Of a stretch of 64,000 bases of DNA, positions 9,955 through 62,208 are shown one piece after another. The translations under genes were made by a program, and so were the position numbers. Source of the stretch: Lachnospiraceae bacterium (GTDB taxonomy: Bacteria; Bacillota; Clostridia; Lachnospirales; Lachnospiraceae); the NCBI GenBank assembly GCA_021202635.1, contig JAJQCQ010000059.1:1-64000 (forward strand). Direction: 5' to 3'. The stretch's first letter is position 1. Every line of letters begins with the position of its first letter. The notes beneath the pieces were generated by a model that saw only the letters and a list, made by a program, of their open reading frames with translations, did no database searches and was not told where the DNA came from.

Positions 9955-9979
9955 GGATGCAGAAAAAGGATTGCGCAGG

Positions 9980-10011
9980 CGAGCAGGATTCGGCAAGCCG
10001 TCTCCTGCTCG
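9980..10011. repeat. GC-rich palindromic repeat, copy 1
   Basis: CGAGCAGGA-ttcggcaagccgtc-TCCTGCTCG; near-identical copy at 62177-62208. Confidence 0.75.
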
Positions 10012-10026
10012 GATGCGGATTCCGGC

Positions 10027-10146
10027 TTCCAGTGGAACAGAGTCCTGGCACTTTCCCTGATCTCAATTATCCCGTCGCTGGTGGTATTCTTCCTGGCGCA
10101 GGATAAGTTCGTGGATGGTATTTCTGCGGGCGGTGTAAAGGGTTGA
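10027..10146 (+). pseudogene. C-terminal remnant of a MalG-type sugar ABC permease
   Basis: Translation FQWNRVLALSLISIIPSLVVFFLAQDKFVDGISAGGVKG* matches the typical C-terminus of CUT1 permeases; no upstream body of the gene. Confidence 0.7.
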
Positions 10147-10221: not shown

Positions 10222-11808
10222 ATGAATATTCGGCTTATCATGAAAACCGCCAGAAGTGTTTCTCTGGAGCTGGATGATGGCGGGATTTATAACACAAAAG
10301 AGACCTATCGCATTTTGCAGAATGGTGAGGCTGTAAAAGAGACGGATACGGTGATTACTTCTCTTTATGGTCTGCTGCCGGACTCAGATTATATGATCTG
10401 GGTAGAAAACTTAGAAGGCGAGCGGGTCGGCTCGTTTGCGTTCCGCACAGATCGGGAGTCAGTGACTCTGAATGTGAGGAGCTTTGGTGCGAAGGGAGAC
10501 GGAGAATCTGATGACACGGTCTGCATTCAGGCGGCGATCATGGCCTGCCCGGCAAATGGACGCGTGCTGATTCCGGCGGGAACCTACCGGATTACGAGTA
10601 TCTTTTTAAAGAGCGGAGTGCGGGTAGAGCTCAGGAAGGATGCCTGCCTGCGCGCGTTTACGGAACGGTCGCGGTTCGCGATTTTTCCCGGGTCGGTGAA
10701 GACGACCGACGGAAAGGAAGAGTACCAGCTTGGAAGCTGGGAGGGCAATCCGCTGCCGATGTTTACCGGGATCATCACCGGTGTGGATGTATCGGATGTG
10801 GTGATTTACGGCGAGGGCAGCATTGACGGCGCGGCAAGTTATGAGAACTGGTGGAAAAATGAGAAGGTCATGGAGACGGCCTGGAGGCCGCGGCTTCTGT
10901 TTCTGAACCGCTGTGAAAACGTCCGCGTACAGGGACTGCTGCTTCACGACAGTCCGTCATGGACGGTGCATCCGTATTTTAGCGAGAGGCTGCTGTTCTG
11001 TGATTTTGCGATTGAGAATCCGCAGGTTTCTCCGAATACGGACGGGATTGATCCGGAATCCTGCCGGGATGTCACGATCTGCGGCGTCCGGTTTACGCTG
11101 GGCGACGACTGCATTGCGGTGAAGTCCGGTAAAATCTATATGGGAAAGAAATATAAAACGCCATCCTCAAACATCCGTATTTATCAGTGCTTGATGGAGA
11201 ATGGGCATGGCGCTGTCACGGTCGGCAGTGAGATGGCCGGAGGCGTGAACGGGCTGGTGGTGGAAAAGTGCCGTTTTTATCATACGGACCGTGGCCTGCG
11301 CATTAAGACGCGGCGCGGACGCGGAAAGGACGCGGTGCTTGACAACATTATCTTCCGGGATCTTCTGATGGATCAGGTGATGAGTCCGTTTACCGCAAAT
11401 GCTTTTTACTTCTGCGATCCGGACGGGCGGACGGAGTTTGTGCGTTCCCGTGAGAAATACCCGGTAGACGAGGGAACCCCCTCGATGAAGCGTTTTTATT
11501 TTGAAAATATCCGGGCGACCAACTGCCATGTGGCGGCGCTCTGGTTTGAGGGTCTGCCGGAGCAGAAGATTGAGCAGATGGAGATGCGCAACATTGAGAT
11601 TTCCTTCGCAGACGACGCAAAATGCGATGTCCCGATCATGTCAGAAGGAGTGGATGCGTGCAGCAAAAGAGGTATTTTTGTGAGAAACGTGAAAAAACTC
11701 ATTCTTGACCATGTGACGATTGAAGGATGCGAAGGGGAGCTGTTTGAATTGCATGATGTGGAGGAAGTGGTACAAGAGAGACTTGCGCCGCAGAACGGAA
11801 TCTGTTAG
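10222..11808 (+). CDS. Polygalacturonase-like glycoside hydrolase (GH28)
   Basis: 528 aa; VRSFGAKGDGESDDT, NTDGIDPESCRDV, GDDCIAVKSGK and HGAVTVGSEMAGG motifs. Confidence 0.9.
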   Translation: MNIRLIMKTARSVSLELDDGGIYNTKETYRILQNGEAVKETDTVITSLYGLLPDSDYMIWVENLEGERVGSFAFRTDRESVTLNVRSFGAKGDGESDDTVCIQAAIMACPANGRVLIPAGTYRITSIFLKSGVRVELRKDACLRAFTERSRFAIFPGSVKTTDGKEEYQLGSWEGNPLPMFTGIITGVDVSDVVIYGEGSIDGAASYENWWKNEKVMETAWRPRLLFLNRCENVRVQGLLLHDSPSWTVHPYFSERLLFCDFAIENPQVSPNTDGIDPESCRDVTICGVRFTLGDDCIAVKSGKIYMGKKYKTPSSNIRIYQCLMENGHGAVTVGSEMAGGVNGLVVEKCRFYHTDRGLRIKTRRGRGKDAVLDNIIFRDLLMDQVMSPFTANAFYFCDPDGRTEFVRSREKYPVDEGTPSMKRFYFENIRATNCHVAALWFEGLPEQKIEQMEMRNIEISFADDAKCDVPIMSEGVDACSKRGIFVRNVKKLILDHVTIEGCEGELFELHDVEEVVQERLAPQNGIC

Positions 11809-11819
11809 TATCATACTAA

Positions 11820-12012
11820 ACAGTTCAGAACAGCATCTAGCCTCAGACATATGACGCGTAAGCGGCATATAGCCTTCGAAGAAGGCGGCGCTGAACGGTC
11901 CTGCGTGCCAGTGGCACGCGTTTAGGACGGACCGAAGCGAAGCGGAGAACCAGTGGACGTTCGCTTAGCGCCGACCGAAGCGAAGCGTAGACCTGTGGCC
12001 TGCTGTTCAATA
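11820..12012. repeat. Family-1 modular intergenic repeat, copy A (expanded)
   Basis: Begins CAGTTCAGAACAGCA; contains CCTCAGACATATGACGCGTAAGCGGCATATAGCCTTCG shared with 46620-46665 (reverse complement); ends CCTGTGGCCTGCTGTTCAATAG. Confidence 0.8.
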
Positions 12013-13877: not shown

Positions 13878-15023
13878 ATGGACAGGATTGAGAAGTACAT
13901 AGATGAGCTGCTGGCAAAGAGTACGCCGGATCGGCCCGCGTGGAACATCGAAAAGATCCTGCAGGGGCTGAAGTCGAACTGGAATTACATCGACGGCTGC
14001 ATGATCAAAGCGGTTCTGGAGATGTACGCGATTACCGGAAATCAGAAATATTTTGCTTTTGCGGACGCGTTTATCGATGCGAAGGTGCGCGAGGATGGGA
14101 CGATTGACGGCTATTCGGTCGAGGAGCTGAATATTGACAATGTCAACGCCGGTAAGACACTTTTTGAGCTCTATGATCTGACCGGAAAGGAAAAATACCG
14201 CAGGGCAATTGACCTGGTTTACAGCCAGATTGAGCAGATGCCCCGCACGAAGGAGGGCAGCTTCTGGCATAAGAATATTTACCCGAATCAGGTGTGGCTC
14301 GATGGGCTGTATATGTGTCAGCCGTTTTACATGGAATACGAGACCCGGTTTGACGAAAAAAAGAAGTACGACGATATTTTCCGCCAGTTTTTTACTGTGC
14401 AGGAAAATATGCGCGATCCGAAGACCGGACTTTACTATCACGCGTGGGACTCTTCGCGGCAGATGTTCTGGTGTGACCGGGTGACAGGTCTGAGCCAGAA
14501 TTTCTGGCTGCGCGCGCTGGGGTGGTTTTCGATGGCGCTGCTGGATACGCTGGATAAGACGGACGCTTCGGCGGCTCCGGAGGCATACGGCCGGATGAAG
14601 GAGATGTTCCTCGGTCTGATGGACGCGCTCCTGAAGTATCAGGATGAGAGCGGCATGTGGTACCAGGTTGTCAATTTCGGCGGCATGGAGAAGAACTATC
14701 TGGAGACGAGCGGCAGCTCGATTCTGGCGTATGCGCTGTTAAAAGGCGTGCGGCTTGGATTTTTGCCGGAATCGTACCGGGAATATGGCGAGAAAGCCTT
14801 TCATGGTGTCTGTGAGAACTATCTGTCGGAGGATGAGCATGGAAGCCTGCATCTGGGCGGTATCTGCCTGGTCGCGGGACTCGGCGGCAAGGGCAACCGG
14901 CCGGGAACTTATGATTATTATATGTCGGAGCCGGTGGTAAAGGATGACGCGAAGGGTGTGGGACCGTTTTTGCTGGCCTATACCGAAATGCGCAGAGCCG
15001 GGAAGATGGGAGATGAAACGTAA
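13878..15023 (+). CDS. Unsaturated rhamnogalacturonyl/glucuronyl hydrolase (GH105/GH88)
   Basis: 381 aa; NQVWLDGLYMCQPFYMEYE, YYHAWDSSRQMFW and FWLRALGWFSMAL motifs. Confidence 0.88.
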   Translation: MDRIEKYIDELLAKSTPDRPAWNIEKILQGLKSNWNYIDGCMIKAVLEMYAITGNQKYFAFADAFIDAKVREDGTIDGYSVEELNIDNVNAGKTLFELYDLTGKEKYRRAIDLVYSQIEQMPRTKEGSFWHKNIYPNQVWLDGLYMCQPFYMEYETRFDEKKKYDDIFRQFFTVQENMRDPKTGLYYHAWDSSRQMFWCDRVTGLSQNFWLRALGWFSMALLDTLDKTDASAAPEAYGRMKEMFLGLMDALLKYQDESGMWYQVVNFGGMEKNYLETSGSSILAYALLKGVRLGFLPESYREYGEKAFHGVCENYLSEDEHGSLHLGGICLVAGLGGKGNRPGTYDYYMSEPVVKDDAKGVGPFLLAYTEMRRAGKMGDET

Positions 15024-15077
15024 CGATTCAGAACAGCAGGCCACAGGTCTGCGTTCCACTTCGGTTCTGAACGATTG
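15021..15077. repeat. Family-1 modular repeat, copy B (short)
   Basis: TAACGATTCAGAACAGCAGGCCACAGGTCTGCGTTCCACTTCGGTTCTGAACGATTG; the GH105 stop codon TAA (15021-15023) lies in its left arm. Confidence 0.75.
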
Positions 15078-15093
15078 CAAAGGAGGGAGAGGT

Positions 15094-30288: not shown

Positions 30289-30337
30289 GTAACTATTCAG
30301 AGCAGCAGGCCGCAGACCGCCTGCTCTGAACTGTTAC
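30289..30337. repeat. Family-1 modular repeat, copy C (minimal)
   Basis: GTAACTATTCAGAGCAGCAGGCCGCAGACCGCCTGCTCTGAACTGTTAC. Confidence 0.8.
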
Positions 30338-30446
30338 AAAATCACATATAAAGAAACAGGCGGGATTCGCATGTCTGAGCTTGTGCGAATCCCGTGAACA
30401 TTTTTTGCACACCCGGGAGACTGGCTATTTGCTGGTTTTTCCCGGG

Positions 30447-33547: not shown

Positions 33548-34738
33548 ATGCAGACAGGTTATGAGCGGAATCTGAATTCGATCCCGGTCGGGGATCTGGG
33601 TATTATCGCGCTGAGAAGCTGCGAAGAGCTGGGCAGGAAGATCGATGCCCATATTGTCAACTGGCGGTCGGAGCGAGTGCATGAGCATCAGGGAAGTCCG
33701 CTGCTCCTGGGGTATGATAAGACTTCCTATCTGGTGAGTACAGATGTGCCGCGCTTTGGCTCCGGTGAGGCAAAGGGACAGGTGAATGATTCCGTGCGGG
33801 GCAAGGACATCTATATCCTGGTGGATGTATGCAACTACAGTCTCACATATTCCTTAAACGGTTATACGAACCGCATGTCCCCCGATGACCATTACCAGGA
33901 CCTGAAGCGCGTGATCGCAGCGATCGGCGGGAAGGCGCGCCGGGTCAATGTCATTATGCCATTCCTTTACGAGAGCCGCCAGTTTACACGGGCGGGACGC
34001 GAGTCACTGGACTGTGGGATAGCCCTGCAGGAGCTGACGAAAATGGGTGTGGAGAATATTATTACATTTGACGCGCATGACCCGCGGGTACAGAACGCGA
34101 TTCCGCTTCACGGGTTTGAAACGGTTCTTCCGGTTTATCAGTTTATCAAAGGCCTGTTCCGCGCGGCACCGGATCTGACGATTGATCCGGAGCATCTGAC
34201 GGTGATCAGCCCGGATGAGGGAGCAGCCGGCCGCGCGATTTATATGGCGAACCTGCTTGGTGTGGATATGGGGATGTTTTACAAGCGGCGTGATTACGCC
34301 CGCGTCAAAGACGGCAAGCATCCTGTGGTTGCGCATGAGTTCCTTGGCAGAGATATAGAGGGGCAGGATGTGGTTCTCATTGACGATATGATTGTCACTG
34401 GCAACAGTATGATAGAGGCTGCCAGACAGCTCAAAAAGAGAAAGGCGAAACGCGTGCTGATCTGCGCGACCTTTGGCCTGTTCACCAACAGCCTGGAGAA
34501 GTTTGACAAGGCCTATGAGGAGGGACTGTTTGACGCGCTGGTGACGACGAATCTGGTCTATCAGTCGCCGGAGCTGCTCTCGAAGCCTTACTACAAGGGC
34601 TGCGACCTCAGCAAATATATTGCGCTGATTATTGACACGCTGAATCACGATGGTTCCATGAGCGATCTGCTCACACCGACTGCAAGGATTAATAAATTCC
34701 TGGCAAAGCACAGAAAAACGGATAAGGCAATCGAGTAG
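33548..34738 (+). CDS. prs: Ribose-phosphate pyrophosphokinase
   Basis: 396 aa; MPFLYESRQFTRAGRESLDCG, VISPDEGAAGRA and VVLIDDMIVTGNSM PRPP motifs. Confidence 0.87.
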   Translation: MQTGYERNLNSIPVGDLGIIALRSCEELGRKIDAHIVNWRSERVHEHQGSPLLLGYDKTSYLVSTDVPRFGSGEAKGQVNDSVRGKDIYILVDVCNYSLTYSLNGYTNRMSPDDHYQDLKRVIAAIGGKARRVNVIMPFLYESRQFTRAGRESLDCGIALQELTKMGVENIITFDAHDPRVQNAIPLHGFETVLPVYQFIKGLFRAAPDLTIDPEHLTVISPDEGAAGRAIYMANLLGVDMGMFYKRRDYARVKDGKHPVVAHEFLGRDIEGQDVVLIDDMIVTGNSMIEAARQLKKRKAKRVLICATFGLFTNSLEKFDKAYEEGLFDALVTTNLVYQSPELLSKPYYKGCDLSKYIALIIDTLNHDGSMSDLLTPTARINKFLAKHRKTDKAIE

Positions 34739-34821
34739 GAGACGGCTTACCGGATCCTGCCCGCCGCGCGAGGCGCATCCGGCGCTGGCTGGAAAACCTC
34801 CATAATGCGCCTCTGTGCATA

Positions 34822-39408: not shown

Positions 39409-39535
39409 GACGCATAGGCGGCAGTTCCAGGGAAACGGGAGCTGCCGCCTTGGGTTTTCGCTGTTGTGGCTGACCCGCTGCGTCTTACGGAAACAATCCC
39501 TTGCCAGCCTGCCGAAGGGATGATAAAATATTGGC

Positions 39536-39570
39536 AACAGTTCAGAACAGCATCGAAATGAAAAGACAGG
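39536..39570. repeat. Family-1 modular repeat, truncated copy D
   Basis: aacagttcagaacagcatcgaaatgaaaagacagg matches the reverse complement of the 46725-46758 end of copy E. Confidence 0.7.
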
Positions 39571-46569: not shown

Positions 46570-46588
46570 GGTGGGGACTGCTGGGGAC

Positions 46589-46760
46589 TTATTCAGAACA
46601 GCAGGCCACAGACCGCCTTCTGCGAAGGCTATATGCCGCTTACGCGTCATATGTCTGAGGCTTAATGGGCGTTCCGCCCATCCCGAAATGAAAATACAGC
46701 CTTTAGCAGGTAAACCTGCACAGTCTGTCTTTTCATTTCGATGCTGTTCTGAACTGTTAC
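46589..46760. repeat. Family-1 modular repeat, copy E (full length)
   Basis: TTATTCAGAACAGCAGGCCACAGACCGCC...TGCTGTTCTGAACTGTTAC; module order is the exact reverse complement of copy F. Confidence 0.9.
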
Positions 46761-46862
46761 ATCTAAAATTTCTGTGAAATTGAAGCGACATCCGTTGACA
46801 TTCCAATGAATTAGGCGTAAAGTTTCTTCCATAATTAATAGAGAATGCGAGGCGTAATTCAT

Positions 46863-48247: not shown

Positions 48248-48982
48248 ATGAAAGATCCGTATGAGGTTCTGGGAGTACCGAGGAACGCTTCTGAGGAGGA
48301 AGTAAAAAAAGCATATCGAAAGCTTAGCCGACAGTATCATCCGGACGCGAATATTAACAATCCGAATAAGGCGCAGGCGGAGGAAAAGTTCAAAGAAGTA
48401 CAGCAGGCCTATCAGCAGATCATGTATGATAAAGAACATGGCGAGGGCAGTTATGAAGCGAAACAGGGCGGCGGCCGCTCCTCCTCTTCCTCTTCCGGCG
48501 GCTATGGCGGTTACAGAGGCTACGGTGGGTATGGAAGCTACGGAGGCTACGGCCGTTCCGGGAGCAGCAGCTCCGGTTCCTCCGCAAACGAAGACCCGCA
48601 TCTTCGCGCTGCGGAGAACTACATTCGCAGCAACCAGTTTGACCAGGCGATCAATGTCCTCAATGGAATACAGAATCGTACCGCGCGCTGGTATTATTTA
48701 AGCGCGCTGGCTAATTCCGGCCGCGGGAATAATGTCCTGGCACTCGATCATGCGCAGAAGGCGGTTCAGATGGAGCCGAACAACCTGCAGTACCGCCAGC
48801 TTCTCTCCGAAATGGAAGGCGGCGGCCGCTGGTACCAGTCCATGGGAGAAGAATACGGCAACCCGATGTCGCATGGCGGCAACTATTGTACGAGACTGTG
48901 CCTGACGTGGCTGATCTGCAGCTGCTGTTGCAGCGGCGGCGGTGGTATGCGCATGGGCATGCCAATCATGATGTGTTGTTAA
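48248..48982 (+). CDS. J-domain (DnaJ) protein with Gly/Ser-rich linker and Cys-rich tail
   Basis: [57 protein letters not shown] motif present. Confidence 0.9.
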
Positions 48983-49153
48983 CAGTTCCGAGCAGCAGAA
49001 AAATGAAAAAGACAGCCGCAGCAGATTTATCTGCGCAAGGCTGTCTCTTTCATTTTTGGATGGGCGGAACGCCCATTCAGCCACAGACATAGGACGCGTT
49101 AGCGGCATATAGCCTGCGAAGCAGGCGGTCTGTGGCCTGCTGCTCGGAATAAC
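48980..49153. repeat. Family-1 modular repeat, copy F (full length, inverted relative to E)
   Basis: TAACAGTTCCGAGCAGCAG...GGCGGTCTGTGGCCTGCTGCTCGGAATAAC; the dnaJ stop codon TAA is at 48980-48982. Confidence 0.9.
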
Positions 49154-49172
49154 ATAAATGCAGCAGAAAAAA

Positions 49173-49219
49173 GAAAAAGACAGCCGCAGCAGATTTATCT
49201 GCGCAAGGCTGTCTCTTTC
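49173..49219 (-). terminator. Hairpin terminator of mscL; identical 47-nt copy at 49005-49051
   Basis: GACAGCC...GGCTGTC stem; T-rich tail on the minus strand. Confidence 0.7.
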
Positions 49220-49232
49220 TTTTTGTTTCATT

Positions 49233-58018: not shown

Positions 58019-58172
58019 TGCAATACTGTTCTGAACCGTTACCATAAAATTAAATTATAGGTTACCGTATACGCCAAATTTTTTGAACTTTTTTGTCGGG
58101 GAGAAAAAGGTATAATACAGAAGAGTGATGAAAGAGGATATACACATTTACAAACACAAAGGAGAGAATGGG

Positions 58173-61959: not shown

Positions 61960-62176
61960 TTTTTTGTAACAGTACTGAGCAGTTACAATTTTTTATATAA
62001 ACGGAATTTTGATAGATTTTTCTTAGTGGACATCTGATGCCCAAAACGATTATGATAAGGACAGCAGAGGGGGCGACGATTGCATGATAGTGCAAAGAGG
62101 CACAGGCAATCGTCGTTTTTATGCGCAGTGCTGCGAGAGGTATTTTCCGGCTGTCGCCGGACGCAGCCCGCGCGGG

Positions 62177-62208
62177 CGAGCAGGACTTGGCAAGCCGCCT
62201 CCTGCTCG
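62177..62208. repeat. GC-rich palindromic repeat, copy 2
   Basis: CGAGCAGGA-cttggcaagccgcc-TCCTGCTCG, inside a longer GC-rich hairpin (CGCAGCC...GGCTGCG). Confidence 0.75.

Follow-up and report, generated by a model that had tools for sequence, protein, structure and literature searches.

The E-type family of intergenic repeats, to which copies E and F of the window (the whole 64,000-nt stretch of Lachnospiraceae DNA analysed here) belong, is a new MITE family with two unusual features, a four-way-junction fold and one-sided partial copies of its own elements. Taken whole, the explanation that we regard as very probable is that of a MITE mobilised in trans by a DDE enzyme, with a fold that aids its persistence, the last part being the least certain. 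A literature search with the end sequence gave unrelated papers only, and no paper on such a family in Lachnospiraceae turned up.

Copy E occupies positions 46585..46760 on the minus strand, carries a pair of terminal inverted repeats with 3 and 0 mismatches, and gave 81 BLAST matches in its own genome, a 3.98-Mb draft with its closest named relatives among Lachnospiraceae and Clostridiales MAGs. The first-pass annotation had recognised the element and placed its end at 46589; the true end is 46585. Copy F (48980..49153, plus strand) is an older full-length element located 3' of a DnaJ-domain gene, as supported by covariance model R1, by its fold and by orthologous copies in related species. 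The two had been described as inverted full-length homologues, and this holds, since BLAST aligned them in inverted orientation with 84% identity across 171 nt and their arm pair runs for 105 nt without gaps at 90% complementarity. Model R1, whose training set includes both copies, matched E at 46585-46764 (3e-51) and F at 7e-44. All of the internal modules named in the annotation lie where it had placed them. On the minus strand, E comprises the left terminal inverted repeat GTAACAGTTCAGAACAGCA (46742..46760, an exact pattern match), HP1, a long A/T-rich hairpin with the tip GCAGG-UUUA-CCUGC (46684..46740, recognised by its fold and by a palindromic partial model match), HP2, the hairpin GGATGGGCG-GAA-CGCCCATT (46664..46683, recognised by sequence and fold), and HP3, a branched stem CCTCAGAC...GTCTGTGG bearing two hairpins (46605..46661, recognised by its fold). 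HP2 of F lies at 49058..49077 on the plus strand, as judged by sequence match.

The terminal arms had been read as inverted repeats. Indeed, the family ends in 19-bp terminal inverted repeats, GTAACNNTTCAGAACAGCA, which with at most one mismatch were matched 144 times in the host genome, compared to 0 times for the reversed pattern. Among the 81 host-genome matches to E, 14, including E itself, share at least 90% identity across 146 or more of the 191 nt. Target-site duplications, which the annotation had suggested looking for, were exact at a length of 8 bp in 18 of 43 paired elements (shuffled mean 0.46), and the flanks agreed at 7 or more of 8 bp in 26 of the 43 (null 1.2); exact flank duplications of 5-7 or 9-12 bp were found in none of these 43 elements. 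The target sites are AT-rich (GC 18%), and the paired elements measure 41 to 328 bp, the standard form being 175-176 bp. The family has no coding capacity, is densely self-paired and stays below the size limit of about 500 bp for a MITE. Copies of the F type lack clear target duplications. By standard criteria, the assignment to MITEs is secure: the family has terminal inverted repeats, a fixed 8-bp duplication and many copies, and orthologous sites can be empty. Contig ends, both in the host genome and in genome G035, often fall inside element copies, as expected for near-identical repeats; the possibility that these ends hide insertion sequences was rejected on the same observation. A large share of the "modular" sequence between genes in these Lachnospiraceae is accounted for by the family, as are some of the assembly breaks.

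Copies A to D are internal-deletion mini-elements or fragments, and A also holds a second, nested hairpin repeat. They had been listed as copies keeping subsets of the modules, which the covariance model bears out for A and C and sequence for B and D. Copy A (11818..12010, plus strand; model match 11770-11919, 4e-8) is by sequence a mosaic that lacks HP1 and HP2 and has nested hairpin repeats inside. Copy B is a 59-bp mini-element (15020..15078, strand unassigned) whose terminal-repeat pair has 0 and 4 mismatches, and copy C is a 49-bp mini-element (30289..30337, strand unassigned; model match 30289-30341, 1e-3) flanked by the 7/8 target duplication AAAGTCAC/AAAATCAC. Copy D (39533..39570, plus strand) is a left-end fragment consisting of the terminal repeat and the start of HP1, with a 34-nt perfect match to E. 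A lone terminal repeat, recognised by pattern and sequence, adjoins a terminator-like hairpin at 58026..58044 on the minus strand. Copy A contains two units of the second hairpin repeat, one within the other (11889..11991, plus strand). This repeat is about 53 nt long and recurs in other copies at corresponding positions of the element; in some copies it occupies constant sites in HP1, in the loop of HP2 and in HP3, and it is also found inserted in itself. The proposed "module loss" holds as regards the subsets, and its cause is internal deletion together with insertion of this second repeat.

Several other repeats were noted in passing. The second hairpin repeat was also seen in L013, L015, L016, L019, L020, L048 and L139, with no visible target duplication. 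Another dispersed palindromic family, CGAGCAGGA...TCCTGCTCG, occurs in the window at 9973-10034, 34709-34765, 62170-62208 and 1759-1797. A 12-base tandem repeat at 865-1008 of the window lies in an apparent coding region with an EGRKEGRK-like product and may encode the tail of a protein of the Rpn/PD-(D/E)XK type. Near position 5700 of L146, a 26-bp palindrome, GTAACTGT...ACAGTTAC, lies between 8-bp repeats CCGAACAG and may be a minimal element related to the same transposon.

Orthologous sites in relatives record both absence and decay of the elements. Polymorphism at such sites had been proposed as a check, and L146, L147 and L149 have no element at site E. In L142, L144 and L145, one or both ends are preserved at the same junction and the middle is gone, the remnant in L145 being close to a mini-element. 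These remnants indicate that an element can lose its interior where it stands and so become a mini-element, and part of the "module loss" is accounted for in this way. Copy E has no intact target duplication, and its 3 terminal-repeat mismatches are at the 46585 end; the absent duplication fits an insertion of some age. At site F, 3' of the DnaJ-domain gene, most of the relatives compared carry a copy with a diverged HP1, L145 retains one HP1 without the middle, and L146 lacks the element.

In genomes other than that of the window, a DNA search (E <= 1e-5) found matches to E in 30 of 35 from the same genus and in none of 24 from other families. The exact terminal-repeat pattern was present in 16 of 47 genus genomes. 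A covariance model, the construction of which had been recommended, was scanned over the window and 295 genomes of the order, and found copies in the window and matches in six genomes besides the window genome. Near-identical copies in G148, from another genus of the same family, suggest a recent transfer. Clear homologues were found in G198 and G281, from another family of the order, and the matches in G335, G129 and G074, which are structural with little sequence likeness, were left out of the homologue count. Furthermore, GTAACAGTTCAGC ends, which are related to the terminal repeats of the E-type family, were detected in 6 of 9 genomes of the G198 genus and in none of the control, and the paired elements of this genus have exact 8-bp duplications in 11 of 27 cases and a similar cloverleaf. 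In viral contigs, the end pattern gave 8 lone unpaired matches, about the level of chance.

The enzyme that would mobilise the family in trans was sought among known transposases. IS66 ends start with GTAA and IS66 makes 8-bp duplications, and since both features fit the E-type family, IS66 was the leading parent candidate. It was rejected on its absence from the host genome and on the ends of the IS66 loci of the genus, none of which carries the E-type ends; those of L115 read GTAAGCG. IS256, ISL3, IS1595 and DDE_Tnp_1 were likewise rejected as parents, being absent or without matching ends. The ORFs around unpaired terminal repeats, 54 in all, yielded no transposase among the 25 commonest of 64 Pfam families. 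Across these searches, no autonomous element with E-type ends was found. The transposase may lie in an unassembled repeat, belong to another family or have been lost.

The predicted folding energy is -85.8 kcal/mol for E (z -10.3) and -102.5 kcal/mol for F (z -12.7), and nearly all of 32 copies, when folded one by one, gave the same four-way junction, whose arms are the terminal-repeat arm, HP1, HP2 (GGGCG-GAA-CGCCC) and HP3, a stem with two hairpins. The "compensated-looking" changes between copies that had been pointed out are real and statistically strong: 49 of 71 pairs showed changes on both sides, compared to 22.9 in the shuffled control and 15-23 with the partner slid, the slid control being biased in favour of the structure because this was derived from the same sequences as were tested. 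Double-change cells numbered 189 against 55.8 in the control, and 88.8% of cells were paired against 80.6% after shuffling, in an alignment based on sequence. These data show that compensatory change conserves the four-way junction between copies, and between species, within one genus. Such covariation is not proof of a selected folded function, since template-switch repair can also give long palindromes matched changes. MITE folds are usually seen as a by-product of the inverted repeats; here, a specific junction is kept by matched mutation, so that whether transposons are selected for an RNA shape that is harmless or useful becomes a directly testable question.

A modest bias between the strands bears on whether the folded molecule is RNA or DNA. 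A change from G-C to G-U keeps pairing on one strand, and an A-C mismatch breaks it; if DNA cruciforms were what is selected, the two would be treated alike. On the modelled strand, the ratio of G-U to A-C was 44:21, and in a larger set of 64, made non-redundant at 90%, it was 82:45. Tested column by column, the excess reached only p about 0.08-0.1 (sign test) in these main sets. Selecting the pairs from the reverse strand returned identical pairs, so the G-U excess is not caused by the choice of pairs. Moreover, 26 of 32 copies folded better on the modelled strand. Together, these data are a hint, not proof, that selection acts on one strand.

The family might instead be a functional structured RNA, either a 3'-UTR element or a small RNA, that spreads as a repeat and whose fold is selected for a role in the cell. 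The strong compensatory change, the excess of G-U over A-C, the better folding of the modelled strand and the occupation of site F in most related species compared all speak for this reading. It is countered by the mixed orientation of the copies relative to neighbouring genes (10 co-directional sense, 17 antisense, 7 convergent and 5 divergent, on crude ORF calls), by the loss or change of sites E and F in some species and by the modest significance of the sign test. Rfam, too, gave no match above the gathering score, and a permissive search gave only weak matches to miRNA models. On balance, we consider this reading unlikely. Of the three options first put forward, the MITE stands, and the mixed gene orientation and the modest strand signal give a regulatory RNA role no clear support. 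A match to a catalogued repeat or RNA family, or a lack of further copies or covariation, had been named as grounds for giving up the proposal; no Rfam family was matched, and copies and covariation are abundant genome-wide.

In the MITE reading, the fold would be retained for the persistence of the element, in one of two ways: 1) a folded transcript or single strand could render an insertion beside genes harmless; 2) the extruded cloverleaf could be a good substrate for transposition or replication.

The second unusual feature is that 26 of 96 elements are followed, within 90 nt downstream, by a direct copy of their own 5' part that is truncated at its 3' end. No upstream partial copy of the 5' part was found in the 96 elements, and the shuffled control also gave 0. 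The partial copies start mostly in the left arm and stop at variable points, and in 19 of 22 cases the closest relative of the partial copy was the HP1 of the adjoining element itself. Next to F, a partial direct copy of its 5' arm and HP1 at 49160..49224 (plus strand) is 97% identical to 48992-49056. We conjecture that such copies arise from template switching at the base of the extruded cloverleaf.

A stronger form of the fold hypothesis, which we hold to be improbable, is that spread or persistence depends on the four-way junction as a single strand, RNA or DNA, with the 3' partial copies as a by-product. To our knowledge, no fold-dependent adaptation has been described for ordinary DDE-mobilised MITEs. 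The downstream position of the partial copies, their start mostly at the left arm and their variable ends are also what would favour a rolling-circle or tandem-duplicating palindromic element, of which they would be replication traces. The recent copies, with 8-bp duplications and two intact ends, fit an ordinary DDE transposon instead, and we judge a rolling-circle origin very unlikely.

Finally, we give next to no credence to a set of look-alike intrinsic transcription terminators or attenuators: one side of HP1 is indeed rich in A and the other in T, and at F the DnaJ-domain gene is followed by the second copy of HP1, but the entire 176-bp unit repeats with its terminal repeats, elements are found in divergent regions too, a scan for terminators predicts none at either E or F, and the target duplications already contradict this view, in agreement with the earlier statement that the repeat is not a plain terminator.

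Compared to known systems, QMITE2 of Coxiella burnetii (PMC5896051) is described in a review (PMC10969869) as non-autonomous, with terminal repeats of 23-29 bp, direct repeats of 7-9 bp, a core of 113-145 bp and a transcript predicted to fold stably. By this description, its host and ends differ from those of the E-type family. Intergenic repeats of Borrelia plasmids carry phylogenetically conserved RNA secondary-structure motifs, according to the title and listing of the report (PMC2674063); by that description, they are intergenic structured repeats like the E-type family, in another host. IS66 ends have in common with the family the GTAA start and the 8-bp duplication, and the remainder of the end differs. 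REP/REPIN elements are, like the E-type family, short palindromic mobile repeats with many copies per genome. REPINs need RAYT transposases and leave no target duplication, unlike the E-type family with its exact 8-bp target duplications. BOX elements are modular with variable box repeats, and RUP is tied to IS630 and a TA duplication. For BOX, RUP and SPRITE of Streptococcus pneumoniae, stable folds and terminator-like motifs are discussed in the same review (PMC10969869). Like these three, the E-type family consists of small intergenic repeats, and it differs from them in its 8-bp duplications and its one fixed four-way junction.
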